From the NCBI GenBank assembly GCA_004322135.1, contig SCSG01000031.1, positions 62,001 through 126,000 on the forward strand: a stretch of DNA of 64,000 nucleotides. The letters are read 5' to 3'. The notes under the pieces were generated by a model. It worked only from the letters and a program-made list of their open reading frames with translations, was not told where the DNA came from and searched no databases. Shown piece by piece: positions 4,069 through 32,869 of the stretch. Position 1 is the stretch's first letter. Every line of letters begins with the position of its first letter. The translations under genes were made by a program, and so were the position numbers. Source of the stretch: Burkholderiaceae bacterium. Lineage in GTDB: Bacteria; Pseudomonadota; Gammaproteobacteria; Burkholderiales; Burkholderiaceae_B.

Positions 4069-6876
4069 ATGAAAAGCATGAATAGTTTTGGGGCTCAGGA
4101 AACACTCAAGGTTGGTTCCGAGTCATACAGCATTTACCGTCTCGCTGCCGTCAAGGGAGCGGGAATCGACGTTGCCACACTCCCGTACGGGTTGAAAATC
4201 CTGCTCGAAAACCTGCTGCGCACGGAAAACGGCCGCGATGTTACGGCCGACGACATTCGAGCACTTGCGGGGTGGAAAGCCGATGCCAAGCCTGATCGCG
4301 AAATTGCCTTCACGCCCGCGCGCGTCATCCTGCAGGACTTCACCGGCGTTCCAGCGGTGGTCGACCTGGCCGCCATGCGCGAGGCCATGCGCGACCTCGG
4401 GGGCGACCCGAGCAAGATCAACCCTTCGGCACCCGTGGAACTTGTCATTGACCACTCTGTCATCGTGGATACATTCGGCCGGAACGACGCGTTCAAACGC
4501 AATGTCGAAATGGAATACAAACGCAACGTGGAACGCTACAAGTTCCTGCGCTGGGGCCAAAGTGCCTTCAAAGACTTCAGGGTCGTACCGCCGGATACCG
4601 GCATCGTGCACCAGGTGAATCTGGAACATCTGGCGCGGGTGGTGTTCAGACGCGACGATGACGGTACAAAATTCGCGTACCCCGACACCTGCATCGGCAC
4701 TGATTCACACACACCCATGGTAAATGGGCTGGGCGTCGTGGCGTGGGGCGTAGGTGGCATCGAAGCCGAAGCCGCCATGCTGGGCCAGCCCATCTCCATG
4801 CTGATTCCCCAGGTGGTAGGCGTCAAACTTACCGGCGCGCTGCCCGAAGGAACAACCGCCACGGATCTTGTACTGACCATTACCGAGTTGCTGCGCCAGA
4901 ACCACGTGGTGGGCAAATTCGTCGAATTCTACGGTCCTGGCGTTGCGGCCGTACCGCTGGCCAACCGTGCCACCATCGGCAACATGAGCCCGGAATACGG
5001 CTCCACCATATCCATCTTCCCGATCGATGACGAAACGCTACGCTACCTTGCGCTTACAGGCCGCAGCGAAGAGCAGATTGCGCTCGTAAAGGCGTACGCC
5101 CAACTGCAGGGCCTGTGGCACGACCCTAACGCCGAATTGCGCTATTCCCAACGCATCAATCTTGACCTGTCGACAGTGGTGCCATCCATTGCCGGACCGA
5201 AACGCCCACAGGACCGCATCTCCCTCACCAATGCGCAACGCTCATTCGAAGGTGCTCTGGGGCAGTCGCTTAGCGCTTCACACAAGCTGCACGGCTACGA
5301 CAAGGCGGTTGCCGAATCGTTCCCTGCCTCGGATACACCAGCCTTCAACGACTCCACCAGCCAATCCGCCGCCTCAACGGATCACACTGACGAGACGTCG
5401 GCCGGAAGCCACGAGCGCGACCCCGTGTCCATTACCCTGGACGACGGCACCAAATGCCGGGTGGATCACGGCTCCGTGGTCATTGCCGCAATCACCTCAT
5501 GCACCAACACGTCCAACCCCACCGTAATGATCGCGGCTGCGCTGTTGGCCAAGAAGGCTGTCGAGCAGGGTCTGAAACGCAAGCCATGGGTCAAGACCAG
5601 CCTTGCCCCAGGATCCAGGGTGGTCACCGACTACTACAAGCGGGCCGGACTCATGCAGTACCTGGAAGCACTTGGGTTTTATCTGGTGGGATTCGGCTGT
5701 ACAACCTGCATCGGCAACTCGGGCCCCTTGATTCCCGAGGTCAGCCATGCCGTCAATGAACACGACCTGTCCGTGGTGTCGGTTTTATCCGGCAACCGCA
5801 ACTTTGAAGGCCGCATTCACTCCGAAGTCAAAATGAATTACCTGATGTCGCCCCCGCTCGTAGTGGCATACGCCCTGGCCGGGACAATGGATACAGACCT
5901 GTTCAACGATCCGCTGGGCAAGGGCAGCAAGGGACAAGACGTCTATCTGAAAGACATCTGGCCTTCGGCCGCTGAAGTGCAGTCGGTTGTCGACTCGGCA
6001 ATCGTCTCGGGCATGTTCAAGACCGGTTACGCCGACGTATTCAAGGGCGACGAGCGTTGGCGCGATCTGCCTACGCCAGAGGGCGAACTTTTCGACTGGG
6101 AGCCAGATTCGACGTACGTGCGCAAGCCTCCCTATTTTGAAAACATGCCACGCAACCCGGAACCTGTTTCCGACATCCTGGAAGCACGGGTGCTGGCGTT
6201 GCTTGGCGACTCGGTCACTACGGACCACATCAGCCCGGCCGGTACCATCGCCAAGAACTCGCCCGCTGCCGCCTACCTGGCCGGACAGGGCGTGGAGCCA
6301 AGCGCGTTCAATTCCTACGGCTCGCGCCGCGGCAACCACGAAGTCATGATTCGTGGCACGTTTGCCAACGTGCGGTTACGCAATCAACTGGCACCGGGCA
6401 CCGAGGGCGGCTTCACGCGCGATTTCACCCAACACGATGCGCCCGTCAGCACAATTTTCGAAGCATCCAGCGCCTACATCAAGGCCGGCATACCTCTCGT
6501 AATTCTGGCAGGCAAGGAATACGGGTCGGGGTCATCGCGCGACTGGGCCGCCAAGGGTACCGTTTTGCTGGGTGTACGCGCCGTCATCGCCGAATCGTAC
6601 GAGCGCATTCACCGCTCAAACCTGATCGGCATGGGCGTGTTGCCGCTGCAGTTCCTCGACGGCCAGAATGCAAGCTCGCTTGGCCTGACAGGAGCGGAAG
6701 TCTTCGACATCAAGGGGGTGGAGGAACTGAACTCCGGCAAGATCCCCGAGAAAATCAAGGTGTGCGCAGGAAAAGTCGAATTTTCCGTCTCGGTGCGTAT
6801 CGACACCGACAGTGAAGCCGCGTATTACCGTCATGGCGGCATTATGCAATACGCCTTGCGCAATCTCCTGGACTGA
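4069..6876 (+). CDS. acnA: Aconitate hydratase A
   Basis: Converts citrate to isocitrate in the TCA cycle using a [4Fe-4S] cluster. At 935 residues it is slightly longer than E. coli AcnA. Cluster ligands are seen in [11 protein letters not shown] and [14 protein letters not shown], and substrate-site motifs in [12 protein letters not shown] and [13 protein letters not shown] of the swivelling C-terminal domain. ATG 4069 is chosen because TAGGAG precedes it by about eight bases; a TTG ten codons earlier lacks a site. A Ser/Thr/Asp-rich linker around residues 415-450 contains [10 protein letters not shown] and looks inserted relative to E. coli AcnA. It appears to be monocistronic and ends at a hairpin. 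Confidence 0.97.
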
Positions 6877-18271: not shown

Positions 18272-18916
18272 TCAGCGTACCGGATCCAGCCCGTTTATAT
18301 AAATCCTGAATTGTTTGCGCAACGCAGCCAGACCCGCATCAAGATCGGGATTGTCTTCCGAAATCCACAGCCGCACAGCGCCGGCGTAGACAAAAAACAG
18401 GCCCAGGGCAATTACGGACGGGTTCTCCCGGGATCGAACCTGCCCACGTTTTTGGGCGTCGGCAACCAGTTGCCTGACTGTGTCGACAACACGCAACCGG
18501 TTCTCGGTGAACTCAACGGAAAGTTTGCCGTGTTGGTAAAAGGTTAATTCACGAAGCAAGATGCGTGACAATGTTGGATTTCCGGCAAAATCTTCGTACA
18601 AGAGCGAAAAAAAAGCCACCAACTGGCCAAGGAGCGACTTACGCGGATTCACCGCTTCGATTCCGCGCTGCTGGATCTCGTTGAGATGATCGACATAAAT
18701 TAAAAATATCAGGTCACGCTTATCGTCTGCATAGTTAAAAAGTGTGCCCAGGCCCACGCGTGCACGCCGGGCAATATCGCGTGTCGTCGCGGCATCATAC
18801 CCAAGCTCAGTAAAAAGCTCCTTGGCAGCGCTTTTAATACGTTGAAGCTTTTCCAGCTTGTTCTGCTCCCGCAACCCAAGGGGCGGTTTCTCAAACACAA
18901 CTGTATTCTTTTTCAT
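18272..18916 (-). CDS. TetR-family transcriptional regulator
   Basis: The DNA-binding domain begins near residue 15 (LQRIKSAAKELFTELGYDAATTRDIARRARVGLGTLFNYADDKRDLIF), followed by a helical ligand domain. ATG 18916 puts the domain at the usual distance; GTG 18985 and ATG 18976 in the same frame are alternatives, and no ribosome site decides. It converges on the ligase/amidohydrolase operon and is the best candidate to bind the paired GAACATGTTC sites upstream of that operon, though its own promoter shows no copy. Confidence 0.9.
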   Translation of the reverse strand: MKKNTVVFEKPPLGLREQNKLEKLQRIKSAAKELFTELGYDAATTRDIARRARVGLGTLFNYADDKRDLIFLIYVDHLNEIQQRGIEAVNPRKSLLGQLVAFFSLLYEDFAGNPTLSRILLRELTFYQHGKLSVEFTENRLRVVDTVRQLVADAQKRGQVRSRENPSVIALGLFFVYAGAVRLWISEDNPDLDAGLAALRKQFRIYINGLDPVR

Positions 18917-18985
18917 TAATAACCCATTTTCCCCAAAAGATAAGGCTACCTCCGGCCGGAGAGATTTTTCTAACATTGGACCCAC

Positions 18986-19183
18986 CCAAACTTAACTCCA
19001 ACACTACGCGCCCGACCATGCGGTGTTATCTTTTATCATAGATAGAGGCGCGTTTATTTCCTCGGGCAGCCGCCAGCCCAATCCATACTAACTTCCAGCA
19101 GCCAAAAAATTGTACCTACTTCGGCATGCCTGTATATCTAACTGGCACTAGCATGCCGCAAATCCCTTCTTGCCGCGACCGTT
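18986..19183. other. Intergenic region
   Basis: Between the TetR promoter and the duplicated leader. It is A+T-rich in parts and contains TTATCTTTTATCATAGATAG near 19027. I see no gene or RNA. Confidence 0.4.
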
Positions 19184-19241
19184 GAAAGCTGATTTAATAA
19201 ATATTGATGAACCAATCAGGTTCTGTGGCGCACTTTCCTTA

Positions 19242-19257
19242 AGTGAAATATTTCACT
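19242..19257. promoter_or_regulatory. Operator candidate AGTGAAATATTTCACT
   Basis: A perfect sixteen-base palindrome, identical to the one at 22498-22513. It is the upstream member of a pair whose second site starts 95 bases downstream. It resembles sites bound by IclR/KdgR-type dimers. Confidence 0.7.
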
Positions 19258-19336
19258 ACTTAGCACAGCGAAAAGAAGCACTGCATAAACACGGTAGTCC
19301 AGAAGGCAGCGGCAGCGGTCAATGTATACGAATCAT

Positions 19337-19352
19337 AATGAAATATTTCATT
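19337..19352. promoter_or_regulatory. Operator candidate AATGAAATATTTCATT
   Basis: A perfect sixteen-base palindrome ending 13 bases before the ATG of the truncated transporter frame. It differs from the upstream site only by A/G and C/T at its two symmetric outer positions. At this position a bound protein would block transcription of the operon. Confidence 0.7.
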
Positions 19353-19365
19353 AACCGAGACAAAA

Positions 19366-19485
19366 ATGCAGCAAGCCATGGAAGGTCCGGCAACGGGCAA
19401 GGCGGCTGGCGGAGACAACAGCGATATAGATAATAGCCTTGCGGCAACCTTAATATCGAACAGAATCGAACCTATGCCCGTTTCC
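19366..19485 (+). pseudogene. N-terminal remnant of an MFS transporter gene
   Basis: About 40 codons that align in register with the first 40 residues of the MFS transporter at 22623, including ATLISNRIEPMPVS against IALISARIERLPVS. After that the frame runs on into the start of the FAD gene and stops at 19590 without any membrane segment. It may still act as a translated leader for the FAD gene, whose own ribosome site lies just inside it. Confidence 0.65.
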
Positions 19486-19510
19486 GATCAAAACGCCGCG
19501 GAGGCAACCG

Positions 19511-21073
19511 ATGACATCGAAAGTACGCGAAATGACGTTCGACGTAGCCGTCGTTGGAGGTGGTGGCGCGGGTTTATTAGCTGCAGCTGAGGCCGGGCGC
19601 ACAGGATGCACGGTTTGCGTCGTGGAAAAAGCCCCCACACTCGGTGGGACGACAGCAATGTCGGTAGGCTCCATCATGGCAGCCGGCACACGCTTACAAC
19701 GACGAGCCGGGGTCTCGGATTCACCAGTTGAGCACGCCCAGGACTTAGCCGCGATCTGCGAGCAACTAGGCCTGCATGACAATGCTGAATTGCGCGACCT
19801 CTACACCAATCACGCTGCGGAGGCGGTTGACCTTCTGGAATCGATCGGTGTTGTATTCACTCAGCCAATGCCGCAGCCGCCACACGGGAAGCCGCGATTA
19901 CATCAGGTCATCCCTGACTCAAGCTCTTATATTTATCATCTCGAACGGTACTGCCGCAAGAATTCCGTCACACTGATCCTCGGCACCCAAGCAGACAGCT
20001 TGGTGTACCGGAAAGGACTCGTCTGCGGAGTCAAAGTGCATAACGCTGAGGGGGCAATGGCAATTACGGCACGACGCGCCGTTGTACTAGCTTCTGGCGA
20101 TGTAGCCGGAGACGCTGAGTTACTCCGCACCTACGTGACAACTGGCCTCGATGGCGTGCAGCCCATCAATCCGGTTTGCGCCGGCGACGGCCATCGAATG
20201 GCCATCGCAGTAGGGGCACACATTGTCCCGCGGACCGATTTCAGTGCAGCCGGCCTCACCCACATACGTTTCGTGCCTCCACCCAAGAAAACTCTTGTCC
20301 AGCGTATTCCCCCCTACGCCCTATTCGCGCAATTGGCCAAGCTGGCCATTAATCACGTGCGCCCCACGTTGATCAGGCCTTTCATCCTTCAGTTCTTGAC
20401 CACGGCCCTTGCCCCAGACCGAGGGTTGTTCCAAAACGGCGCCCTGCTCGTGAACCTAAATGGCCAACGTTTTTCCAACGAACTCAGCGGTCCTGGCATT
20501 AACGACGTTGGCCAACACGATCGCAAAGTGGCGGAGTCGGAAGGTGAAGATGCGGCTCCGAGCGTGTTGCTGGCACGGCAACCGCAGGGGCGCGGCTACC
20601 TTATCTTCGATCATCGCATTGCCACTCTCTTTTCAAATTGGCCTCACTTTATTTCGACGGCGCCTGGCGTGGCATATGCCTATTTAAACGACTACCGCAA
20701 AGCAAGACCTGATCTGTTTCACATGGCTCCTACGCTAGAGGCGCTATCGGAGGTTCTACGCATGCCTGCGCATAGCCTGTATCAAACAGTCGGCGACGCG
20801 AACGGCCTACACGCGGATTGTCGGCTCGCGCGCCCACCTTTCTACGCGCTCGGTCCCGTCACTGCATGGATTCTGGTGACACCCGTGGGGTTGAAAGTTG
20901 ATAATTACCTTCGGGTGTTACGTGAGGACGGTTCCCCTATCGCAGGACTGTTTGCGGCCGGAGGTGTGGGGCAAGGGGGATTCACATTAACGGGCCATGG
21001 CCATGGGCTGGGTTGGGCTTTCACATCAGGGATGCTTGCTGGCCGCAATGCGGCGCACAGAGACAACACATGA
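19511..21073 (+). CDS. FAD-dependent oxidoreductase (fumarate reductase/3-ketosteroid dehydrogenase-like)
   Basis: 520 residues, FAD_binding_2 family. The dinucleotide motif VAVVGGGGAGLLAAAEAGR is near residue 11, EKAPTLGGTTAMSVGSI follows, and the C-terminal GLFAAGGVGQGGFTLTGHGHGLGWAFTSGMLAGRNAA closes the FAD site. Members oxidise or reduce an activated carbon-carbon bond. There is no heme or signal peptide, so it is cytoplasmic. GGAGG sits about eight bases before the ATG. Its stop overlaps the start of the DHODH-like gene (ATGA), so the two flavoproteins are made together and may exchange electrons or substrate. Confidence 0.85.
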   Translation: MTSKVREMTFDVAVVGGGGAGLLAAAEAGRTGCTVCVVEKAPTLGGTTAMSVGSIMAAGTRLQRRAGVSDSPVEHAQDLAAICEQLGLHDNAELRDLYTNHAAEAVDLLESIGVVFTQPMPQPPHGKPRLHQVIPDSSSYIYHLERYCRKNSVTLILGTQADSLVYRKGLVCGVKVHNAEGAMAITARRAVVLASGDVAGDAELLRTYVTTGLDGVQPINPVCAGDGHRMAIAVGAHIVPRTDFSAAGLTHIRFVPPPKKTLVQRIPPYALFAQLAKLAINHVRPTLIRPFILQFLTTALAPDRGLFQNGALLVNLNGQRFSNELSGPGINDVGQHDRKVAESEGEDAAPSVLLARQPQGRGYLIFDHRIATLFSNWPHFISTAPGVAYAYLNDYRKARPDLFHMAPTLEALSEVLRMPAHSLYQTVGDANGLHADCRLARPPFYALGPVTAWILVTPVGLKVDNYLRVLREDGSPIAGLFAAGGVGQGGFTLTGHGHGLGWAFTSGMLAGRNAAHRDNT

Positions 21074-22152
21074 TCTACGAACACGCCATACGCCCAATGC
21101 TGTTCAACCTTCCCCCCGAAGCGGCTCACTCCGGCACATTGCGTATCGCGGGTGCCTTGGCCCGAGTGGGACTCATAGGCAATACGATTGAGCGCATTTT
21201 GAAGCTGGAAGACGAGCGGCTTGCCATCTCCAGTGCGGGACTAAAATTTCCCAACCCCATCGGATTGGGTGCCGGCATGGACAAAAACGCCATCGCACTG
21301 GACCTTCTCGGCCAACTCGGCTTCGGATCGCTTGAGGTCGGCTCCATATCGTCGAACCCGTCTGGCGGAAACCGCTCCACCCCACGACTACAGCGCGTGC
21401 CACAAGAGCAGTCTTTGCTCGTTAACTACGGCGTACCAAATGACGGTATTAAGGTCATCGCTGAACGACTTCGGCGTTACCATGCTTGCGCTCCCCTCGG
21501 CGTGAGTCTGGTCGAGACCAACACGGGAGTCCAAAACACTACCTCCGCAGTTATCGAAGAGCTACAGAAGGCTGCTTTGGTAGCTGCCCCTTTGGCCGAC
21601 TACCTGACTATCAACCTGCAATGTCCCAATTCGATTTCCGGGCCATTCGCAAAAGCCAGCAATCTGCGAGCGCTACTCCGTGCACTCGCGGACATTGGCG
21701 ATATGCCCCCAACATTTCTAAAGACGGCTGCTACAACCGACGAACGACTAATTGACGAGCTAACTGGGACTGCGTGCGATTTTCCATTTGTACGTGGCAT
21801 CGCACTGAGCGTCATAATTCGCCGCCCGTTTGCCACAACGGGCAAACATCACAGCTCGACGACAGGCTCTGTGACGGGAGGGCCGCTACGAACACTCGCC
21901 CTCGAAAGTTTACGCGCCTGGTATCGTCGCATCGACCGTCAGCGGCTTATGCTAATAGGCGCTGGCGGTGTCTCTACAGGTGCCCAAGCATACGAATTCA
22001 TTCAGAACGGCGCGTCCCTTATACAGCTTGTAACAGCACTGGTATACCGAGGCCCAGCGGTAGCTCGCCGCATCAAGTCTGAGCTTTTGGCCGCGATCGA
22101 GCGCGACGGCGTAGCAAACATCCAGGAGGCTATTGGTTGCGTTATGGTTTGA
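21070..22152 (+). CDS. Divergent class 2 dihydroorotate dehydrogenase-like flavoprotein
   Basis: 360 residues in the PyrD class 2 order: YEHAIRPMLFNLPPEAAH, then IGLGAGMDKNAIALDLLGQLGFGSLEVG, then IGAGGVSTGAQAYEFIQNGASLIQLVTALVYRGP (phosphate site of FMN). Key positions differ from true PyrD: the catalytic-base Ser of NISSPN is Cys (NLQCPN), and the orotate-contacting INRxGFNN is VNYGVPND. It is therefore probably a paralogue acting on another cyclic or unsaturated substrate. It is translationally coupled to the FAD oxidoreductase and shares promoter architecture with the hydantoinase-like operon. Confidence 0.8.
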   Translation: MIYEHAIRPMLFNLPPEAAHSGTLRIAGALARVGLIGNTIERILKLEDERLAISSAGLKFPNPIGLGAGMDKNAIALDLLGQLGFGSLEVGSISSNPSGGNRSTPRLQRVPQEQSLLVNYGVPNDGIKVIAERLRRYHACAPLGVSLVETNTGVQNTTSAVIEELQKAALVAAPLADYLTINLQCPNSISGPFAKASNLRALLRALADIGDMPPTFLKTAATTDERLIDELTGTACDFPFVRGIALSVIIRRPFATTGKHHSSTTGSVTGGPLRTLALESLRAWYRRIDRQRLMLIGAGGVSTGAQAYEFIQNGASLIQLVTALVYRGPAVARRIKSELLAAIERDGVANIQEAIGCVMV

Positions 22153-22439
22153 TAGTCAAGTCCGTCATGTCGCATCACTTGGCAAAGTAGACCCGGCAAA
22201 CAAAATGTGTGAGACGCATTTATGCCACCCGTTTCTTGAAAGCAAACTATGAAGCTCACGCCGAGTCTGGACGAGACTCATGCAACGCATGCGAACGACG
22301 GCTTCGCATCCCTTGCTGTCACCCCATCGTCCACAGACGTAGACAGCATGGTGACACGTGATGGTAACGACATTCCGTGGAACAGGCGCAATGTCTTGCC
22401 GATCGGCTGGCGCAGGAAATTTTTCTTGCGGCGCCTATA
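22153..22439. other. Intergenic region with an unassigned 63-codon frame
   Basis: A frame at 22249-22440 (MKLTPSLDETHATHAND... ending RKFFLRRL) has no recognisable domain and no good ribosome site, and its end runs to the duplicated leader. I see no other gene. It may be debris of the rearrangement that produced the duplicate promoters. Confidence 0.35.
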
Positions 22440-22497
22440 GAAAGCTGATCTAATAAATACCAGAAAATTAATTGTTTTCTGTTGCGCCAATAAATAA

Positions 22498-22513
22498 AGT
22501 GAAATATTTCACT
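22498..22513. promoter_or_regulatory. Operator candidate AGTGAAATATTTCACT
   Basis: A perfect sixteen-base palindrome, identical to 19242-19257, starting 58 bases after the conserved GAAAGCTGAT block in both copies. Confidence 0.7.
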
Positions 22514-22595
22514 ATTTTCAAAAAAGAAGTCGCCAGCAGAGCAGATGAAGTCTGAAGTCTGAAGTCCGCAGCAATTTTCAACGTACATAAATAAA

Positions 22596-22611
22596 AATGA
22601 AATATTTCACT
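22596..22611. promoter_or_regulatory. Operator candidate AATGAAATATTTCACT
   Basis: A hybrid of the two perfect palindromes (one mismatched outer pair), 98 bases after the upstream site and just ahead of the AAGGAGACAAA ribosome site of the transporter gene. Confidence 0.65.
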
Positions 22612-22622
22612 AAGGAGACAAA

Positions 22623-24041
22623 ATGGAGCACGCCACACAAAGTTCATCAGTGGGTAACGCGACACACGCCAATGACGATGGCGCAGGTGATAGACACGCC
22701 ATAGCCCTGATATCGGCCAGAATTGAGCGCCTGCCGGTATCCAAGTGGCACGCAAGACTTTTGGCTGCCGTCGCGACAGGACACTTCTTCGATGGGTTCG
22801 ACGCCGTTGCCATCGCGTTTGTCCTGCCAGTCCTCGTCGTGCAATGGCACTTGTCACCCGGCGAAATCGGTCTGCTTATTTCCGTGGGGTACATCGGCCA
22901 ACTGATTGGAGCTTTACTGGTAGGCCCCTCGGCAGAGCGATTCGGCAGAATTCCAGCATTCAGATCTGCCCTGGTCATCATTGCCGTATTCAGCTTTGGG
23001 TCAGCGTTCGCGTGGGGGCTCACAATATTCCTGGTCTTGCGGTTTTTCCAAGGTATCGGGCTGGGCGGCGAAGTACCAATCGCAGCCACCTATCTGAACG
23101 AACTCAGTCCTTCCAAGGCCAGGGGACGCATCGTTCTTGCCCTGGAGTCGGGGTTCTCGCTGGGCACCCTCGTGACGGCTGCCGTCGCGGTATGGGCTAT
23201 CCCGGCCTACGGGTGGCAGTCAATGTTCGTCATCGGCGCCCTGCCAATCATACTGGCGGCGGTGCTCCCACGCATCGCCCCGGAATCGCCACGATGGCTG
23301 GCAGCCAACGGCCAAATCCAAAAAGCAGAGCAAATCGTAGCCACCATGGAAAGTCACTTGCCCAGTGACGTACGAAACGCGCTCCCCCCACTGACGGTTG
23401 CTCCGCCACCGAAGCGCAAGCCATCGTCTTTCAAGCAACTGTTCACCGACGGGCTTGCTGCGCGTACGATCGGCGTGTGGATTATTACGTGCTGCACTTC
23501 GTTGACTGGCTACGGGCTTCTTGTCTGGATGCCAACGCTGTATCGAACCGAATACCACATGCCGGTCAAGATCGCACTGCGCTACGGAATGATCTCCAAC
23601 ATTGCCGGCTTTATAGCAATACTTGTCGGCATTTTCCTGATCGACTACATTGGCCGCCGCAAGACGTTCATACTCGGCTTTCTCGGCTCGGCCGTGCCGC
23701 TGCTTTACCTTACGTACGCAGGCACAACAATCCCCGCGTTTTACGCAATGGTGTGCGCAACGATAAGCATGGTATTCATCAGCCTATTGCTGGCTGGGAT
23801 TTACGTGTACGCCCCTGAAATATATCCCACGCGACTGCGTGCGACCGGCGCCGGGGCCGCCAGCGCATGGCTCAGGATCGGATCAATCTTCGGCCCCATC
23901 GCCGTGGGTGCCATGCTTACCCATTCCACTATCAATTCCGTGTTCCTGCTGTTCGGCGCCGCCGCCGTAGTTGGCGCAATCGCCGTATGGACTCTCGGGC
24001 TGGAGACCAAGGGCAAAGCGTTGGACGAAATAGCTTCATAA
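22623..24041 (+). CDS. MFS transporter, aromatic/organic acid symporter type
   Basis: 472 residues and about twelve membrane segments. Marks of the AAHS/sugar-porter branch are GHFFDGFDAVAIAFVLPVL in helix 1, GPSAERFGRIPAFRSAL, RFFQGIGLGGEVPIAATYLNEL, ESPRWLAANGQ and the second-half YAPEIYPTRLRATGAG. It is probably a proton-driven importer of the acid or cyclic compound degraded by the following genes. AAGGAGAC precedes the ATG. The regulatory region carries two palindromic sites. HyuA starts 100 bases downstream beyond a hairpin. Confidence 0.9.
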   Translation: MEHATQSSSVGNATHANDDGAGDRHAIALISARIERLPVSKWHARLLAAVATGHFFDGFDAVAIAFVLPVLVVQWHLSPGEIGLLISVGYIGQLIGALLVGPSAERFGRIPAFRSALVIIAVFSFGSAFAWGLTIFLVLRFFQGIGLGGEVPIAATYLNELSPSKARGRIVLALESGFSLGTLVTAAVAVWAIPAYGWQSMFVIGALPIILAAVLPRIAPESPRWLAANGQIQKAEQIVATMESHLPSDVRNALPPLTVAPPPKRKPSSFKQLFTDGLAARTIGVWIITCCTSLTGYGLLVWMPTLYRTEYHMPVKIALRYGMISNIAGFIAILVGIFLIDYIGRRKTFILGFLGSAVPLLYLTYAGTTIPAFYAMVCATISMVFISLLLAGIYVYAPEIYPTRLRATGAGAASAWLRIGSIFGPIAVGAMLTHSTINSVFLLFGAAAVVGAIAVWTLGLETKGKALDEIAS

Positions 24042-24140: not shown

Positions 24141-26231
24141 ATGAGCATTACCAAGCAGATGCATGACTCCGGACGCCAGCTGCGCATAGCTGTCGACATC
24201 GGAGGAACCTTTACGGACCTCGCTGCGTTTGACGAATCGGGAAAGCAATTACTTTTCAGCAAGTCACTATCGACCCACGACAGCCTGGTAAAGGGTATCC
24301 AGAACGCCATGAGCATGGCGAAAATCCAGTTTGAAAAAGCCGATGTCTTCCTGCACGGGTCCACCATTGTCATCAACACCTTGCTTGAACGCAGCGGCGC
24401 CAGGACGGCGCTACTCATAACCGAGGGCTTTCGTGACATATACGAAATCGGTCGAATCAACCGGCCAGATGCGTACAACCTTTATTTTTCGAAGCACGAA
24501 CCGCTGGTTAATCGATCCATGCGGTTCGAGGTCGAGGAACGGCTTCTGGCCGATGGAACGGTCCACAAGGATTTAAATGAGCAGCAGGTTCGGGATATTG
24601 CCAAGGACCTCAGGGCACGCAATGTCGAGGCGGTCGCCATCATTCTGCTTCACTCATACAACAACAACGAACATGAAAGACGGGTAAAGAAGATCATCGA
24701 GGAGGAAATCCCCTCCGCCTTTGTCACCACTTCGCATGAACTCTCTCGGGAATACAGGGAATTCGAACGGGCGTCGACAGTCGCCGCAAACGCTTACGTC
24801 GGCCCCAGGGTGGGAACGTATCTGCAGGAACTCGAATCGCACCTCGAGCAAAACAAGTTTCGTGGAGACTTCTATGCGGTCCAGTCCACAGGAGGTCTTT
24901 TCCCGGTCAGCGATGCCAAGCAACACTGCGTACGGATGCTGGAGTCAGGGCCGGCTGCCGGCGTCATCGGTGCACAGGCAATTTGCAGCCAGCTTGGGCT
25001 CACACAGGTAATCGCATTCGACATGGGAGGCACCACCGCAAAGGCTGGCGTCATCAACAATAGCGTTCCACTCACTACCGGAAGCGCACTAATAGGCGGC
25101 TATGCAAAGGCGCTGCCTATTCAGATTCCCATGATCGACATATTCGAGGTGGGGACTGGGGGAGGCAGTATCGCCGCGCTGAATGAAGGCGGCGCGCTCA
25201 GGGTTGGCCCGCGCAGTGCCGGGTCCGAACCCGGGCCAGCCTGTTACGGCCGCGGCGGCACGCAACCGACCGTCACCGATGCCAATCTGGTATTAGGCCG
25301 GATCGATGCCGAGCATTTCCTGGGTGGAACCATGAAGCTTGATGTAAGCGCCGCAGTTGACGCGGTAAGCGATCGATTGGCCAAGCCTCTGAATCTCGAT
25401 GTCCAGACAGCGGCAAACGGCGTTTTACGGATCGCCGTCACGGCAATGTCCTATGCAGTAAAAGGCGTCACCACAGAACGGGGCCTGGACGCTGGAGCGT
25501 TCGCCATGATCGTATACGGCGGCGCAGGCCCCCTGCACGCGTCTGCGATCGCCCGGGAACTTGGCATCCGGCGAGTCATCATTCCGTTTTCACCAGGACA
25601 TTTTTCCGCTTACGGCATGCTTTTCAGTGATCTGCGCTACGACTACGTCCGGTCCTGCTTCCAATCGTTGTCACTGGCGGTGTTTGATGAAATTGAGCGC
25701 CTGTATGGCGAGATGGAAGGAACCGGCCGAGACGCTGTTTCGGCAGCGACAAGTCAGCCAAAATCCATCGAGTTCAAGCGATTTGCGGACATGCGATACG
25801 TCGGGCAGGAACATGCCGTAACCGTTGAGCTCCCACAACAACTCTTCGATAATCGTGATGTGGACGCCATTAAACACGCCTTCGATGAGGTTCACCTCCA
25901 GCGTTATGGTACCTGCGCCCCCAAAGAGGCTGTCCAAATCGTCAGCGTCAGGACTTCGGTCATTGGGAAGATGCCCAAACCGCCACAGGAAACCAGCCCG
26001 ACAGCTTCCGGAAATGGCGCCGAGAAAGCGCTGGTGCGCACCAAGGACGTGTTTTTCGAGTATGCCGGATTCGTCGAAACCCCCGTGTATGATCGGGCGC
26101 TCCTGAGTTATGGCGATCATATTTCAGGTCCGGCCTTGATCGAGGAGTACGCATCGACCACCGTCGTGCTGCCAACAGATCGCGTCGCAATCGACTCTTT
26201 TGGAAACCTTGATATCGAAATTGGAGAGTAG
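24141..26231 (+). CDS. Hydantoinase/oxoprolinase family protein, subunit A (HyuA-like)
   Basis: 696 residues. The actin-like ATP-binding start RIAVDIGGTFTDLAAFDESGK is near residue 14, GSTIVINTLLERSGARTALLITEGFRDIYEIGR follows, and FDMGGTTAKAG near residue 295 is the second phosphate motif. The family uses ATP to open hydantoins, 5-oxoproline or N-methylhydantoin, or to carboxylate ketones. It is followed after two bases by the B subunit, so the pair forms one enzyme. Which reaction it performs is not decidable here; acetone/acetophenone carboxylase-type activity is the main alternative. Confidence 0.93.
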   Translation: MSITKQMHDSGRQLRIAVDIGGTFTDLAAFDESGKQLLFSKSLSTHDSLVKGIQNAMSMAKIQFEKADVFLHGSTIVINTLLERSGARTALLITEGFRDIYEIGRINRPDAYNLYFSKHEPLVNRSMRFEVEERLLADGTVHKDLNEQQVRDIAKDLRARNVEAVAIILLHSYNNNEHERRVKKIIEEEIPSAFVTTSHELSREYREFERASTVAANAYVGPRVGTYLQELESHLEQNKFRGDFYAVQSTGGLFPVSDAKQHCVRMLESGPAAGVIGAQAICSQLGLTQVIAFDMGGTTAKAGVINNSVPLTTGSALIGGYAKALPIQIPMIDIFEVGTGGGSIAALNEGGALRVGPRSAGSEPGPACYGRGGTQPTVTDANLVLGRIDAEHFLGGTMKLDVSAAVDAVSDRLAKPLNLDVQTAANGVLRIAVTAMSYAVKGVTTERGLDAGAFAMIVYGGAGPLHASAIARELGIRRVIIPFSPGHFSAYGMLFSDLRYDYVRSCFQSLSLAVFDEIERLYGEMEGTGRDAVSAATSQPKSIEFKRFADMRYVGQEHAVTVELPQQLFDNRDVDAIKHAFDEVHLQRYGTCAPKEAVQIVSVRTSVIGKMPKPPQETSPTASGNGAEKALVRTKDVFFEYAGFVETPVYDRALLSYGDHISGPALIEEYASTTVVLPTDRVAIDSFGNLDIEIGE

Positions 26232-26233
26232 AA

Positions 26234-27943
26234 ATGAGTGCGGAAAAGGATATCGCGGATCCTATCACTGTCGAATTGGTGCGTAACGGGCTTCTGGCCG
26301 TGACTGAGGAAATGAAAACAAACCTCATGCGCACGGCCTACAACATGATCATTTATGAAGCGCTGGATTTCACCGTTGGGTTGTTCACTGCAAGCGGAGA
26401 AACCGTTTCCATCGGGCTTGGGCTGCCGATGTTCATCCGCGGAATGTCAGAAACCGTCAAAGCCAAGATTCGGCACTACGGAATAGAGAACATCCACCCC
26501 GGCGACATCATCGTCACCAACGACGCCTATGTCACAGGCAGCCATCTTAATCACGTAACGTTCACACTGCCCGTTTTCTACGACGGAGAAATTGTCGCAT
26601 TTACGTGCTGCATGGCTCACTGGCTGGATATCGGCGGCACGTTGGGCCAGGTGACGACCGACATTTATTCTGAAGGCCTGCAGATTCCCATCATCAAGTA
26701 TCGAAACGCCGGAGTGATCAACCAGGACCTGCTGGACATCATTGCCATCAACGTGCGGCTGCCCGAACTTGCAATGGGCGACCTGCGCGCGCAGATCACT
26801 GCCGTCACAACAGGCGAGCGACGCTTCCTGGAACTTCTGGACCGATATGGAAAGGGTAAAGTGCTGGCGTCCATTGCGACGATCATGGATCATACCGATG
26901 CCGCCGCACGATCCAACGCCAGCAAAATACCCGATGGCGTCTATAAAGCGGAATCCTTCATGGACGACGATGGCGTCAATGAAGGCGTGCCTATTCCCAT
27001 ACGAGTACAAGTCATCGTGAAGGCAGGTCACGTCACCATTGATCTCACCGACGTCAGCCGCCAGGTCAGCGGCTTCTACAACTCGGGGGTAACCACGGGA
27101 ATCGCATGTGCGCAAGTCGCATACAAGTGTCTGACGACCCCGGAATGGTATCCGGTCAATGATGGAAGCTTTCGCTCCCTGGATGTAGTCATACCGGAAG
27201 GAAGCGTCATCAGCGCAACGCGCCCCGCACCGATGCGGTGGTGGATGACCTTCCCCATGACAGTGATCGACACAATCTTCAAAGCACTCGCGCCCGCGCT
27301 ACCCGATCACGTCATCGCCGGACACCATGCCGACCTGGTTGTGGCCACACTGCATGGCTTCTCGCCAAAAGACGGACGCTTTTTCATTGCCAGCATCGGA
27401 CCTCTCGGCGGGGGATGGGGCGCCAAGTCAACCGAAGATGGCGTCTCGGTAACCGTCTGCATCAACGATGGAGACACCCACAACAGCCCTGTAGAGCAAA
27501 TTGAAGCGAAGTATCCTTTGCTGATCGAGCGATACGAGCTCCGTCAAGACAGCGGCGGCCCCGGGCAATATCGTGGGGGCCTCGGTGCCGATCTGGTTGT
27601 TCAGGCACTTACTCCCTTCTCGTTCGACACCACAATCGAACGCGCGCACTGTAAGCCATGGGGGTTGAACGGTGGCATGGACGGGGACGGCAACGCCGTC
27701 AGCGTCCGCACCAACGGGGTATGGGAGGAAAAGCCGCCCAACGCAAAATTTACCCATCGACGGCTGAAAAAGGGCGATGCGTTCATACTACGTTCAGGCG
27801 GTGGTGGCGGTTACGGTGATCCGCGATTGCGCCCTGCGGAAAAAGTTGCGCACGATGTGGCAGAGGGCTATATAAGTCCTGAATCGGCAAGACGGGACTA
27901 CGGTGCAACGCTCGACACATCTCCGGCGCTCGAAAAAGCCTAG
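26234..27943 (+). CDS. Hydantoinase/oxoprolinase family protein, subunit B (HyuB-like)
   Basis: 569 residues, standard for HyuB. The N-terminal DPITVELVRNGLLAVTEEMKTNLMRTAYN and ITNDAYVTGSHLNH-type segment (here VTNDAYVTGSHLNHVTF) are diagnostic, as is the C-terminal RYELRQDSGGPGQYRGGLG followed by RSGGGGGYGDPRLRPAEKV. It supplies the metal-dependent half of the ATP-driven ring-opening or carboxylating enzyme with HyuA, which ends two bases upstream. Confidence 0.95.
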   Translation: MSAEKDIADPITVELVRNGLLAVTEEMKTNLMRTAYNMIIYEALDFTVGLFTASGETVSIGLGLPMFIRGMSETVKAKIRHYGIENIHPGDIIVTNDAYVTGSHLNHVTFTLPVFYDGEIVAFTCCMAHWLDIGGTLGQVTTDIYSEGLQIPIIKYRNAGVINQDLLDIIAINVRLPELAMGDLRAQITAVTTGERRFLELLDRYGKGKVLASIATIMDHTDAAARSNASKIPDGVYKAESFMDDDGVNEGVPIPIRVQVIVKAGHVTIDLTDVSRQVSGFYNSGVTTGIACAQVAYKCLTTPEWYPVNDGSFRSLDVVIPEGSVISATRPAPMRWWMTFPMTVIDTIFKALAPALPDHVIAGHHADLVVATLHGFSPKDGRFFIASIGPLGGGWGAKSTEDGVSVTVCINDGDTHNSPVEQIEAKYPLLIERYELRQDSGGPGQYRGGLGADLVVQALTPFSFDTTIERAHCKPWGLNGGMDGDGNAVSVRTNGVWEEKPPNAKFTHRRLKKGDAFILRSGGGGGYGDPRLRPAEKVAHDVAEGYISPESARRDYGATLDTSPALEKA

Positions 27944-28031: not shown

Positions 28032-28940
28032 ATGTCATACAAGCTATTGAGCTATTACGAAGGAAGCGACATCATTGCCGGCATCATGGTGAACGAGCGT
28101 ATTTACAAGTTGTCCGATGCTTTGGCAGACGCCTCTTTGCATTCGATGATTCAGGTCCTGGAGCAATGGAAGACCGTACGCCCCAAACTCATTGCTTTCG
28201 CAGAGAAAGCCCCAAGCGGCGGCCTCCCTCTTGCACAGGTGAAACTCGCCGCGCCCGTTCCGCGCCCACCCACAATCTATTGCGCCGGAGCAAACTATAC
28301 GGACCATGTCGCGAATATGGCCCGGGCACTAAATCAGAAAATGGAGCCGGACCCACATGAGAACGGTCTGAATCCCTGGCACTTCATCAAGTCGTCGGCC
28401 AGCGTCGTGGGAACGGGCACCAGCGTCATAGCCACGTCAAAAAAGCTGGACTGGGAGGCCGAACTTGCACTCGTCGTAGGTGCTCGCGCACGCGGCCTGA
28501 CACTGAACAACGCGTTGGATTGCATTGCTGCCGTCACCAATGCCAACGATTTTTCCGCGCGCGACTACCTGCAGCGCGAACAGCTGGACTTCCGTTCGCC
28601 CTTTAAATACGACTGGATTGGACAGAAAAGTTTTGACGGGTCGTGTCCACTGGGGCCGTGGCTGACTCCACTGGATGACATTGACGACATTCAATCACTT
28701 CCCATCCAATTGTGGATCAACGGTGAGCTGAAACAGAACTCCAATACCCAAAACATGATCTTCACCGCGGCCGAACAGCTTGTACAACTATCAAGCCGGT
28801 TGACGCTATACCCCGGTGATGTCATATTAACGGGTACCCCTGCTGGCACCGGGGCCGAAAGCGGGAACTATCTAAAGCCGAATGACGTCGTCACAATAAA
28901 AATTGGAGAGCTGGGCGAGCTCGTCAATAAGATTGAGTAA
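28032..28940 (+). CDS. Fumarylacetoacetate hydrolase-family protein
   Basis: 302 residues. The FAH core starts at TIYCAGANYTDHVANM (about residue 87) and includes the metal glutamates in KLDWEAELALVVG, then NDFSARDYLQREQ, FDGSCPLGPWL and GDVILTGTPAGTG. The family cleaves or decarboxylates beta-diketo acids, or isomerises/hydrates related enols. It sits 88 bases after HyuB with GAGGAAAAG before its ATG. It is therefore likely to process a ring-cleaved product late in this pathway. Confidence 0.92.
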   Translation: MSYKLLSYYEGSDIIAGIMVNERIYKLSDALADASLHSMIQVLEQWKTVRPKLIAFAEKAPSGGLPLAQVKLAAPVPRPPTIYCAGANYTDHVANMARALNQKMEPDPHENGLNPWHFIKSSASVVGTGTSVIATSKKLDWEAELALVVGARARGLTLNNALDCIAAVTNANDFSARDYLQREQLDFRSPFKYDWIGQKSFDGSCPLGPWLTPLDDIDDIQSLPIQLWINGELKQNSNTQNMIFTAAEQLVQLSSRLTLYPGDVILTGTPAGTGAESGNYLKPNDVVTIKIGELGELVNKIE

Positions 28941-28997: not shown

Positions 28998-29906
28998 ATG
29001 ATCAATTTAGCAGCCGCGCGCGGACGCCCCAGGCGCAAAAGTAACCAGCCCGTCGGAATACAAACCGTCGAGACAGCTCTGGATGTGCTCAGCATCATCA
29101 CACAGGAGGGATTTCCTATTGGACTAAGCGAGCTATCACGCAAAAGCGGACTTATTCCAAGCAAACTGCACCGCTATCTCGTTACGCTTGTACGCTACGG
29201 CATCGTAAAACAATCCATTGCCAACGGTATGTACGATCTGGGCCCGACCGCATTGCGTATCGGATTGGCGGCATTAAGTCGCCACGACTTCATCAGTAGC
29301 GCCCAGGATATAGTCGGTGCACTCGCGGCAAATACCGAAAGTACCGTCGCCTTATACGTATGGACCGAGTTGGGGCCGACCTTGGTTCGCATGGAGATGA
29401 GGTCTCCACCACTGACGACCCTTCGTGTCGGCACAGCGCTACCCTTGGTCGGGTCGGCGACAGGTCGGGTATTTCTTGCGCACTTGCCAATGTCGGAAAC
29501 AGCTCGACTGCTGCGAAAAGAACGCGCCGCGGCCAAAACTGACGGCATTGCATTTCCTACTCTTCGGGAAATCAACAGCACGCTGGACGCGATCAGAGAC
29601 AGCGAAATCTACTGGACCCGCGACGCAATTATCCAGAACACGGTCGGCGTAATTCCGATCCTCAGGAGAAAGCAGGATCCTCTTTGCGTCATTATTGCCA
29701 TCTTGCCCAGCGGGCACGCGGGCCCCAGCCAAAGGGAACGCGTCGGCGAGCAGCTGCTGGCCGCTCGAGACATCCTGCAGAAGGAGTGCGGCTTCGACAT
29801 TGAAGAAAGCGCACGGTCCTTACGAACCACCGATTCCAAGACTCGTGAGGTTCAAAGCCAGCTGGACAAGGCCGTCTCGAATATAAAACGCGGGAAGGGG
29901 AAATAA
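28998..29906 (+). CDS. IclR-family transcriptional regulator
   Basis: 302 residues. A basic N-terminal tail (AAARGRPRRKSNQ) precedes the winged helix (TVETALDVLSIITQEGFPIGLSELSRKSGLIPSKLHRYLVTLVRYGIVKQ); the effector domain has VGTALPLVGSATGRVFLAHLP and VGVIPILRRKQDPLCVIIAILPSG. It follows the FAH gene by 57 bases and is the likely regulator of this locus. The four palindromes at 19.2-19.4 and 22.5-22.6 kb resemble IclR/KdgR operators and are its natural candidate targets. No such site precedes this gene itself, so it would be expressed from the operon. Confidence 0.92.
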   Translation: MINLAAARGRPRRKSNQPVGIQTVETALDVLSIITQEGFPIGLSELSRKSGLIPSKLHRYLVTLVRYGIVKQSIANGMYDLGPTALRIGLAALSRHDFISSAQDIVGALAANTESTVALYVWTELGPTLVRMEMRSPPLTTLRVGTALPLVGSATGRVFLAHLPMSETARLLRKERAAAKTDGIAFPTLREINSTLDAIRDSEIYWTRDAIIQNTVGVIPILRRKQDPLCVIIAILPSGHAGPSQRERVGEQLLAARDILQKECGFDIEESARSLRTTDSKTREVQSQLDKAVSNIKRGKGK

Positions 29907-29911
29907 ATGAT

Positions 29912-30283
29912 ATGACGCAACAATCAGGACATCGCCGCCCCGAAGACACCGACCAAGCCATAATCACATTATGGAATGGCATAGGCAGGAGCACACGCCA
30001 TGGAATGTCGTGCGCGTGCTGTTCAGGAGGGATGTTCTCGCCGAACGCACAGCAGCTGGAAGCAGACTTGTTGGATTACTTGGCAGAAAAATACAAAAGC
30101 GAAGGCATCACGTCGCTGCACAATGCTGTGAGTGAACGTGCGGACAATCCAACGGGTGGACTGATCCCCTGGCTACGTGCAATGAGCACGAGCGACACCA
30201 TACCTGCTCCGTTACTGGACCGGCTAAAAAGCGACCTTGTCGATCTCCTGGAAAAATATAATTCAACTCAGGCTCCACGCTAG
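29912..30283 (+). CDS. Hypothetical protein, 123 residues, follows IclR
   Basis: I do not recognise this protein. It starts five bases after the IclR stop and is probably in the same operon. Residues 33-40 read SCACCSGG, a cysteine cluster that could bind metal; the rest is mostly helical with charged residues (LEADLLDYLAEKYKSEGITSLHNAV, LDRLKSDLVDLLEKY). No signal peptide or membrane segment is seen. The 298 bases after it, up to the monooxygenase, show no supported gene. Confidence 0.55.
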   Translation: MTQQSGHRRPEDTDQAIITLWNGIGRSTRHGMSCACCSGGMFSPNAQQLEADLLDYLAEKYKSEGITSLHNAVSERADNPTGGLIPWLRAMSTSDTIPAPLLDRLKSDLVDLLEKYNSTQAPR

Positions 30284-30581: not shown

Positions 30582-32270
30582 ATGACGAAAAACGAGGACA
30601 CGCAAGTACTGGTGGTCGGCGCCGGGCCCGTCGGGCTTACGCTGGCGATGGATCTGGCCCAACGTGGCATTCGGGTATTGATTGCCGAAACGCGCCATCG
30701 CGGCGAGCCTCCCGAGGTCAAGTGCAATCACGTCGCGGCACGATCGATGGAAATCTTCCGAAGGCTGGGGGTTGCGGCCAAACTGCGCAACAGCGGTCTG
30801 CCCGCCGATTATCCAAACGACGTCGCGTACCGCACCACCGTAACCGGCATGGAATTATCACGAATTCCAATTCCGGCGCGGCGTGATCGTTATACCGCGA
30901 CAGGTGGCCCGGACACGTGGTGGCCAACCCCGGAGCCGCCACATCGCATCAACCAGATCTTCCTTGAGCCCGTTCTGTTCGCCCATGCCGAAGCAACCAC
31001 GAACGTTCGGATTCTGAACAGGCTGCGCATCGACAGCGCCGGGCAGGACAACAACGGGGCCTGGGCCACGGGCGTCAATCTTGACGATGGGAGCTCCACC
31101 CGGATCCATTGCAATTACCTCGTGGGGTGCGATGGCGGCCGCTCCATAGTGCGCAAAGCGATTGGCGCGCAATTTCACGGCACGGATGTGGTGGGCCGCG
31201 TCCAGTCGACTTACTTCCGGGCACCCGAACTGCTGGGGCTGCTGAAACACCCGCCCGCATGGGGTACGTTCGCCCTCAATCCGCGCCGCTGTGGCAACGT
31301 CTACGCCATCGATGGGCGCGAAACGTGGCTCTTGCACAATTACCTCGCCGCCGATGAGACGGATTTCGACTCCATCGACCGTGACTGGGCCATTCGTGAA
31401 ATTCTGGGTGTCGACTCAACCTTCAAATACGAGATCATCTCCCGGGAAGACTGGATTGGCCGACGACTTGTGGCAGACCGTTTCCGCGACCGGCGCCTCT
31501 TCATTTGTGGAGACTCCGCCCACTTGTGGATTCCCATGGCCGGATACGGAATGAATGCAGGCATAGCCGACGCGGCAAACCTCTCGTGGCTGATGGCGGC
31601 GCAGCTACAGGGCTGGGCAGGCGATGCCGTGCTGGACGCCTACGAAGCGGAACGACTGCCGATAACCGAACAGGTTTCGAAATTCGCCATGAATCACGCC
31701 ATCGCCCTGCAGCGTCAGCGCGAAGCCGTGCCCGCCCGCATCGAAGAGCCCGGGCCGGAAGGCGATGCCATACGCAAGGCCACCGGCAAGGTGCTTTACG
31801 ACCTGAACGTTCAGCAGTATTGCTGTGGTGGCCTGAACTTCGGATATTTTTACGACAAATCGCCGCTCATCGCGTATGACGGAGAGCCCCCACCCGCTTA
31901 CACCATGGCTGACTTCACGCCGTCAACCGTGCCGGGGTGCCGCACACCTCACGTCTGGCTGGCTGCGGGAAAGTCGCTCTATGACGCACTTTCTCCAGGC
32001 TACACACTATTGCGAACCGACCCTACCCTGGACGTGTCTGCACTTACCTCCGCGGCGGCAACACGCAACGTGCCTCTCGCGGTACTGGATCTTACGGCGC
32101 AGCAAGCTGGCCCGGTCTACGACCACAAACTGGTGCTTTCCCGACCCGATCAACACGTGGCCTGGCGTGGCAACCGTATCCCAAACGACGCGCTGGGGTT
32201 AATCGACCTGGTGCGCGGCGCAGTAAAGCAACCCAGTTCCACCACCAACCTGAAGGAGAAGCCTTTATGA
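30582..32270 (+). CDS. FAD-dependent aromatic monooxygenase (PheA/TfdB/MhpA-like)
   Basis: 562 residues of the class A flavin hydroxylase family. VVGAGPVGLTLAMDLAQRG near residue 10 binds FAD, YLVGCDGGRSIVRKAIG contains the DG motif, and CGDSAHLWIPMAGYGMNAGIADAANLSWLMA is the second FAD site. The C-terminal 160 residues form the thioredoxin-like extension usual in phenol hydroxylases. It adds a hydroxyl to an activated aromatic ring with NAD(P)H and O2. ATGA overlap with the next gene indicates coupled translation. GGAG precedes the start at a suitable distance. Confidence 0.92.
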   Translation: MTKNEDTQVLVVGAGPVGLTLAMDLAQRGIRVLIAETRHRGEPPEVKCNHVAARSMEIFRRLGVAAKLRNSGLPADYPNDVAYRTTVTGMELSRIPIPARRDRYTATGGPDTWWPTPEPPHRINQIFLEPVLFAHAEATTNVRILNRLRIDSAGQDNNGAWATGVNLDDGSSTRIHCNYLVGCDGGRSIVRKAIGAQFHGTDVVGRVQSTYFRAPELLGLLKHPPAWGTFALNPRRCGNVYAIDGRETWLLHNYLAADETDFDSIDRDWAIREILGVDSTFKYEIISREDWIGRRLVADRFRDRRLFICGDSAHLWIPMAGYGMNAGIADAANLSWLMAAQLQGWAGDAVLDAYEAERLPITEQVSKFAMNHAIALQRQREAVPARIEEPGPEGDAIRKATGKVLYDLNVQQYCCGGLNFGYFYDKSPLIAYDGEPPPAYTMADFTPSTVPGCRTPHVWLAAGKSLYDALSPGYTLLRTDPTLDVSALTSAAATRNVPLAVLDLTAQQAGPVYDHKLVLSRPDQHVAWRGNRIPNDALGLIDLVRGAVKQPSSTTNLKEKPL

Positions 32271-32869
32271 AAAAACTTACGATGGCTGCGGCGTGCGCCG
32301 CGTTGTGCCTGTCCACCGTCAGCGTCAGCGCATTGGCCAAAGGAGGCGAAGAAATTCCCGGCGTACGTGGGATCGACCACATCGGATTCACGGTGCCCGA
32401 CATCAACAAGGCTGTGAGCTTTTTCCACGACGTGATGGGTTGCGTCGAGGTCATGCGCTTTGGCCCATTCAGCGATCCCAAGGGCAACTTCATGACGGAA
32501 CTTGTCAACGTCAACCCGCGCGCCGTCATCAAGCAAATCGCCATGATGCGTTGCGGTCGGGGGGCAAACATCGAACTGTTCGACTACACCTCACCCGATC
32601 AGAACAAAGTCATGCCCAAAAACAGCGATTACGGCGGTTACCACATCGCGTTCTACGTCAAGGACATCAAAGCCGCCGTAGACAAGGCCAGATCCCTTGG
32701 GCTGAAGGTAGGCACAGGCCCCTTCACGCTCAAGGAAGGTCCGGCTGCGGGCGAGTCTGTGACCTATGTGCAAACGCCTTGGGGCATGCAACTGGAGCTG
32801 ATCAGCTACCCCAAAGGCATGGCCTACGAGAAAAAGGGTAAGCCACGCCTGTGGGCGCCGGGACGTTAA
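32267..32869 (+). CDS. Exported VOC-family protein (glyoxalase/dioxygenase fold)
   Basis: 200 residues. A clear signal peptide (MKKLTMAAACAALCLSTVSV, cleavage after SALA) is followed by two beta-alpha-beta-beta-beta units. The four usual metal ligands are present: His in DHIGFTV, Glu in IELFDY, His in YHIAFYV and Glu in LELISYP. Metal-dependent VOC enzymes are normally cytoplasmic; a secreted one coupled by ATGA overlap to a flavin monooxygenase is unusual. Ring cleavage or isomerisation of the monooxygenase product is possible, but the compartment mismatch argues for an upstream periplasmic step. Confidence 0.85.
   Translation: MKKLTMAAACAALCLSTVSVSALAKGGEEIPGVRGIDHIGFTVPDINKAVSFFHDVMGCVEVMRFGPFSDPKGNFMTELVNVNPRAVIKQIAMMRCGRGANIELFDYTSPDQNKVMPKNSDYGGYHIAFYVKDIKAAVDKARSLGLKVGTGPFTLKEGPAAGESVTYVQTPWGMQLELISYPKGMAYEKKGKPRLWAPGR

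Follow-up and report, generated by a model that had tools for sequence, protein, structure and literature searches.

Two adjacent operons in a 64,000-nucleotide stretch of DNA from a Burkholderiaceae bacterium (contig SCSG01000031.1, positions 62,001 to 126,000 of the forward strand; hereafter the window) are preceded by leaders that carry the same pair of palindromes. The first operon encodes an FAD-dependent oxidoreductase and a dihydroorotate dehydrogenase (DHODH)-like protein, and the second encodes an MFS transporter, HyuA, HyuB, a fumarylacetoacetate hydrolase (FAH) family protein and an IclR-family regulator. Taken as a whole, these features are probably best explained by a predicted regulon in which a duplicated operon head serves as a control unit for the IclR protein, which would act as a roadblock within the leader. 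Genome-wide site counts were based on the 3.38 Mb assembly of the window's genome (95.7% complete), and relatives were sought in a family set of 268 genomes that included the window's own.

A rare palindrome pair in both leaders

The original prediction described a shared 300-base leader with paired 16-base palindromes, and its blocks and spacings proved exact when both leaders were measured again. The sequence GAAAGCTGAT starts at 19184 in copy 1 and at 22440 in copy 2; the distal palindrome, AGTGAAATATTTCACT, lies 58 bases after it in both copies (predicted operators at 19242–19257 and 22498–22513), a second palindrome follows 95 (copy 1) or 98 (copy 2) bases beyond the first, and an ATG at 19366 or 22623 stands 182 or 183 bases from the start of the block. 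The predicted proximal operators are ATGAAATATTTCAT at 19338–19351 (core 19339–19350) and ATGAAATATTTCAC at 22597–22610 (core 22598–22609), the latter directly before the Shine-Dalgarno sequence AAGGAG. All four operators were called, without assignment to a strand, from sequence matches together with chance and genome counts. The 16-base description fits the distal sites, which are flanked by AAGTGA...TCACTA in both copies, but not the second sites, which outside the 12-base core read A...T in copy 1 and A...C in copy 2.

Shuffled sequences and the exact genome count ruled out a chance origin of the palindromes. With up to two mismatches, GTGAAATATTTCAC occurred four times in the window cf. 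0.16 expected, and none of 100 shuffles reached four. The exact 12-base core, TGAAATATTTCA, was found at four places in the genome, every one in these two leaders, which also rules out a scattered repeat family. The genome search with up to two mismatches that had been proposed for this palindrome returned eight places for the 14-mer GTGAAATATTTCAC, half of them in the two leaders, and the sites were not scattered over the genome. At up to three mismatches there were 87 places, cf. 47 for the reversed control. The other four places at up to two mismatches were rejected as members of the regulon, as three are within coding frames and the fourth is close to two genes' 3' ends; the one-mismatch site C9:70172 sits within a frame that we take to be trpD. 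A plasmid DNA search with the leader gave no match.

Conservation of the palindromes with the operon

Orthologues of the IclR protein (E ≤ 1e-50) were present in four of the family genomes: the window's own, G416 (the sole other genome of the same genus in the set), G495 (Pusillimonas noertemannii DSM 10065, Alcaligenaceae) and G483. When these homologous loci were compared, in line with what had been suggested with the original prediction, a palindrome of this type was found before the operon in all four genomes, as a pair in the first three and as a single site in G483. Exact cores with 78–108 bases between them were found in 2 of the 268 genomes, the window's own and G495, where the pair lies directly before MFS-HyuA-HyuB-FAH-IclR genes whose products are 70, 75, 84, 65 and 65% identical to the window proteins. 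The same operon is present in G416 (72, 79, 85, 72 and 66% identical) with a palindrome pair 75 bases apart, which the core-pair pattern missed because the sites are too close. The G483 locus reads HyuA-HyuB-IclR (IclR protein 46% identical), and the single AGTGAAACTATTCACT located 142 bases ahead of HyuA is the sole full AGTGAA-N4-TTCACT in 6.2 Mb. Across the four genomes, AGTGAA-N4-TTCAC gave 11 rows, or eight places after strand merging, six of which are at these operons (2 of 2 in the window's own genome, 2 of 3 in G416, 1 of 1 in G495 and 1 of 2 in G483), cf. one place for the reversed control. The stretch PSKLHRYLV, which presumably falls within the recognition helix, is identical in all four IclR proteins.

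Selection on the palindromes was supported by an alignment of four leaders (copies 1 and 2, G416 and G495), in which 24 of 24 core columns were invariant compared to 26 of 132 other gap-free columns; for the promoter hexamers described below, 8 of 12 columns were invariant. All eight cores are letter-identical, with TA as the central pair, in leaders that together with the first 42 codons are pairwise 47–60% identical. Shared control of both operons was upheld as the simplest reading, and in relatives the sites go together with the operon. Order-wide searches for IclR orthologues recovered 1 of 399 genomes (E ≤ 1e-60) and 1 of 220 (E ≤ 1e-40), each time only the window's own. Among eight contig stretches with palindrome pairs, only that of P. 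noertemannii was relevant; in the other seven (≤8 kb each), ten window proteins had no match at E ≤ 1e-5.

A promoter-like element upstream of both sites

At an equivalent place in all four aligned leaders stands TTGC.. - N17 - T..AAT, a putative sigma70-type promoter. On the plus strand, it reads TTGCCG - N17 - (TGA)TTTAAT in copy 1 (19170–19198, the best-scoring hexamer pair upstream) and TTGCGG - N17 - (TGA)TCTAAT in copy 2 (22426–22454, placed by the leader alignment), and the hexamer pairs of the four leaders are TTGCCG/TTTAAT, TTGCGG/TCTAAT, TTGCAC/TTTAAT and TTGCAC/TAGAAT. A TG precedes the second hexamer (extended -10) in three of the four. The GAAAGCTGAT-TAATAAATA block of the original prediction corresponds to the end of the spacer plus the -10 element, and this candidate ranks best in both window copies. 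Both palindromes are downstream of the predicted promoter in all four leaders, the centre of the distal one 51.5, 51.5, 47.5 and 45.5 bases past the -10 and the core of the proximal one starting 27, 25, 27 and 28 bases ahead of the ATG.

The IclR protein as candidate ligand and roadblock

The regulator encoded at 28998–29906 (plus strand) carries HTH_IclR and IclR_C domains, scored 42.9 bits for PF09339 (cut-off 22) and 33.9 bits for PF01614 (cut-off 24), and has orthologues beside the operon in relatives; its best solved relative is the KdgR-named structure 5y6i (E 3.6e-25). We consider it the best candidate for the ligand of the palindromes because an IclR-type gene accompanies HyuAB in all four genomes, a TetR relative is absent near the G416 and G495 operons, and a Rex domain is absent from the window's own genome.

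In the proposed mechanism, each leader would be a self-contained unit composed of a sigma70-type promoter, its hexamers 17 bases apart, and an untranslated leader of ~160 bases with two operators, one centred ~45 bases past the predicted start point and the other just ahead of the ribosome-binding site. The operator would be read by the IclR protein, whose gene closes the MFS-HyuA-HyuB-FAH operon. Without inducer, the repressor would occupy both sites, possibly as a bridging tetramer, and RNA polymerase would be halted inside the leader; inducer would free the repressor, and the FAD/DHODH pair would be made along with FAH, HyuAB and the transporter. From the sequence we infer promoter activity, repression over activation, and blocking or looping; repression by halting polymerase within the leader is suggested by the location of both sites downstream of the predicted start point. 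Published work describes dimers or tetramers as the binding form of IclR proteins (PMC8222616). It also indicates that roadblocking sites can function well downstream of a promoter and that it may take several roadblocks to match the range of promoter repression (PMC4132739). On these statements, two downstream sites would suit roadblocking. A more specific version, in which an IclR-type repressor acts wholly inside the leader and bridges operators 75–115 bases apart as a roadblock loop, and in which a portable duplicated unit captured an unrelated oxidoreductase pair, is advanced tentatively, as a possibility with the balance against it.

Compared to known systems, the sites resemble those of Escherichia coli IclR (TGGAAATNATTTCCA), AllR and KdgR, as tabulated in a published survey (PMC8222616), in being A/T-rich palindromes, in occurring more than once per operon and in having the regulator beside its presumed target operon plus one adjacent operon; the GAAAT/ATTTC half-site is also that of the E. 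coli IclR operator. They differ in having a 12–14 base core without a central base and with outer GTGA/TCAC, in being 75–115 cf. 18–22 bases apart, and in lying downstream of the predicted promoter. Like PheR of Sphingobium, the IclR protein would be a repressor of a catabolic operon, but the single 44-base PheR footprint extends across the start point, from -21 to +23 (PMC13273656), whereas the two sites predicted here are wholly downstream. As in the LacI roadblock (PMC4132739), operators tens of bases past a promoter could halt RNA polymerase; that operator was placed experimentally, whereas the present pair is natural and known from sequence. Literature searches for looping or downstream operators of IclR proteins and for HyuAB-FAH-IclR operons found, among the entries listed, nothing on this system, and searches on hydantoinase in Pusillimonas noertemannii and on salicylyl-CoA and gentisyl-CoA with IclR retrieved no papers. 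Together, these predictions offer a concrete regulon for the uncharacterised IclR protein and the HyuAB-FAH operon; should the sites work from within the leader, their layout would not be among the main types in the excerpted survey (PMC8222616).

Several observations weigh against this reading. The palindrome fits neither published IclR consensus (group 1, GKTYCRYW3-4RYGRAMC; group 2, TGRAACAN1-2TGTTYCA; PMC8222616): TGAAATATTTCA has two bases between TGAAA and TTTCA, cf. five to six between TGRAA and TTYCA in group 2, and because of this difference in half-site gap the site was not filed as either type. Tandem IclR sites are usually 18–22 bases apart from centre to centre (94 orthologous groups in that survey), cf. 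95, 98, 75 and 115 here, and these spacings are compatible with helical phasing but not significantly so (R 0.65, ~19% by chance). G483 has one site instead of two and lacks the MFS gene at this locus. GTGAA-N4-TTCAC was absent from all eight plasmid IclR loci fetched (40–50% identical; from 61 plasmid records), which sit in other gene settings, two annotated with salicylyl-CoA genes and one beside gentisate 1,2-dioxygenase. At least one copy of the 12-mer occurs in 66 of the 268 family genomes, and the core is not confined to such operons; the third copies, which in G416 lie within a coding frame and in G495 directly ahead of another large frame, show no obvious connection to them. As to the promoter, the candidate ties with others in G416, another candidate scores one point higher in G495, and the pattern, which was chosen after the alignment had been inspected, occurs in 0.3–0.5% of randomised leaders. 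A generic promoter scanner did not list the element, since it accepts only A as the second base of the downstream hexamer.

Alternative explanations

The same control unit could be used by IclR as an activator or dual regulator instead of a roadblocking repressor, which we regard as unlikely. Activation from downstream sites is uncommon, and both sites are downstream of the predicted promoter in all four leaders, an argument that fails if the true promoter lies elsewhere. The IclR family is described as including activators and dual regulators (PMC8222616).

A different ligand is also improbable, the candidates being the TetR-type protein encoded divergently from copy 1 (18272–18985), Rex, or a remote LacI- or CRP-type regulator. 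That the site departs from the published IclR consensuses speaks for such a ligand, as does the divergent position of the TetR-type gene; however, the 20 kb around the G416 and G495 operons, where the palindrome pairs are present, contained no relative of the TetR-type protein at E ≤ 1e-5, and TetR was rejected as the ligand. For Rex, we take GTGAAATATTTCAC to resemble the central part of Rex and CRP sites, and of three papers that print the 12-mer one is, by its title, on a streptococcal Rex regulon (the other two concern, again by title, Arabidopsis flowering and hnRNP R). In addition, an unrelated Firmicute (Domibacillus, locus L059) has a pair of GTGAAATATTTCAC at 5757–5867, which looks to us like a Rex site, before a frame that we take to be lactate dehydrogenase. 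Against Rex, PF06971 had no match in the window's own genome, cf. 7 positive genomes among 14 controls in the same search, and the distal flanks are AAGTGA...TCACTA, whereas Rex operators have TTGTGA..TCACAA; a Rex operator or regulon was rejected. The Domibacillus pair serves as a caution that unrelated regulators share this palindrome core. A global regulator would be expected to have many sites, but only four exact cores exist (no search for LacI- or CRP-type genes was made), and the sites do not fit a LacI-type operator, which as an even palindrome has a central CG, as all eight have TA there.

A role of the palindromes in RNA, by self-pairing or mutual pairing within the 160-base leader and close to the ribosome-binding site, is very improbable. 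In the centroid fold of the leader of copy 2, both palindromes are paired over 14 bases, but a repeated palindrome pairs automatically. The fold as a whole (copy 2 leader only) does not stand out (z -1.18, equalled by 27 of 200 shuffles), on which ground RNA structure was rejected as the main agent. The cores are identical in otherwise diverged leaders, and such a lack of compensatory changes is what recognition of the DNA by a protein would produce.

Duplication of the operon head

To return to the regulon governed by the IclR protein, the block that its two leaders share is more than a leader, as it comprises the promoter-like element, the two palindromes and ~42 codons of the MFS gene. The block itself was correctly recognised in the original prediction, which was only partly right to call it a leader because ~120 bases are transporter coding sequence; the alignment revealed both the promoter-like element and the transporter 5' end, which had been overlooked. 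Similarity between the copies spans about 19167–19488 and about 22423–22745, and outside this unit it falls to the randomised level (z -0.4 on either side). Compared to first-order Markov randomised sequence, the similarity of the copies reached z 10.8 for the promoter block and z 3.2 for the stretch between the palindromes (6 of 500 randomised sequences reach it).

The ATG at 19366 that was counted in the original prediction is the start of a transporter relic and not that of the FAD gene, which starts 145 bases further on, at 19511. This relic of the MFS 5' end (19366–19491, plus strand, ~42 codons) was recognised by DNA and protein alignment to the MFS start: at the DNA level it scored z 9.5, with none of 500 randomised sequences reaching the score, and at the protein level MQQAMEGPATG...LISNRIEPMPVS aligns with MEHATQSSSVG...LISARIERLPVS in the transporter (14 of 42 residues identical). 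Its frame continues to a stop at 19588–19590, inside the FAD gene in a different frame, and the Shine-Dalgarno AAGGAG of copy 2 corresponds to AACCGAG in copy 1. Differences by codon position are 20, 13 and 21 compared to copy 2, 16, 10 and 25 compared to G416, and 18, 15 and 29 compared to G495; coding decay of the relic is not shown by these numbers, because the G416 and G495 comparisons keep a third-position excess.

Since the block holds a promoter-like element, the palindromes and ~42 MFS codons, copy 1 is a truncated copy of the head of the transporter operon, and the two leaders are related via duplication of this head. The presumed order of events is that the promoter, operators and first ~42 transporter codons would have been duplicated and then joined to the FAD-DHODH pair. 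As to timing, the identities of the leaders including the first 42 codons are 60% between copies 1 and 2 and 59% between copy 2 and G416; the duplication may date from about the time of the split between copy 2 and G416, or copy 1 may have evolved faster. A copied control head with a stub of the old gene before other genes would be a readable record of a regulon gaining members, and the stub indicates what is retained, with operator cores intact and the relic Shine-Dalgarno altered.

Genes of the two operons

The earlier proposal that the two enzyme sets serve a single compound is not supported: what speaks for it is the shared operators, and the relatives contribute nothing. Neither the FAD nor the DHODH-like gene occurs in the 20 kb around the full operon in G416 and G495. 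At E ≤ 1e-60, relatives of the FAD protein were found in 27 genomes of the family besides the window's own (36–47% identity among the matches listed), with no DHODH-like gene beside them in the nine best-ranked loci, and no FAD gene stood beside DHODH relatives in the 29 best-ranked loci (fetched flanks ≤1.5 kb in both cases).

All genes of the two operons are on the plus strand. The FAD-dependent oxidoreductase (FAD_binding_2; 19511–21073) has its own GGAGG before the ATG, and its nearest NCBIfam model is flavocytochrome c, below cut-off. The class-2 DHODH-like gene (21070–22152) was taken to start at ATG 21070, which overlaps the FAD gene as ATGA; the mechanical open reading frame list instead begins it at TTG 21013. 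The second operon comprises the MFS transporter (22623–24041; nearest NCBIfam model the aromatic acid/H+ symport family, below cut-off), HyuA (hydantoinase/oxoprolinase A; 24141–26231), HyuB (hydantoinase B; 26234–27943), the FAH family protein (28032–28940, by domain searches) and the IclR gene. The models nearest to HyuA and HyuB are the caprolactamase alpha and beta subunits (CapAB; NF050156, NF050157), which are likewise HyuA/HyuB-type subunits encoded side by side, but the scores (531 and 290 of 1000 bits) are far below the curated cut-offs.

Behind iclR lies a gene for a small protein without a Pfam or NCBIfam match (29912–30283, plus strand), which carries MSCACCSGGMFS and is conserved in the corresponding position of the G416 and G495 loci (~45% identical); the relative at the G483 locus is weak (23%, E 2e-6). 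In five of the plasmid loci (L092–L095 and L098), the gene of an IclR relative (44–50% identical) stands behind that of a thioesterase, which is divergent from a ligase or monooxygenase gene, the ligase being annotated as salicylyl-CoA ligase in two of the five. A GCAA-N4-TTTYATA-like block is common to the short intergenic stretches between the divergent genes and is a candidate operator of this group. The DHODH-like protein, to which a second DHODH in the genome (C45) is 33% identical, has Cys (NLQCPNS) at codon 21622, cf. Ser (NVSSPNT) in the mitochondrial enzyme 4ori, as do its nearest relatives found, L018 (46%) and L019 (44%). We take this to be the position of the catalytic base, for which class-1 DHODH enzymes use Cys, and the protein is possibly a distinct oxidoreductase and not a pyrimidine enzyme. 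The product of 32267–32869, judged by eye, looks to us like a VOC/glyoxalase protein with a signal peptide, encoded behind an FAD monooxygenase-like gene.

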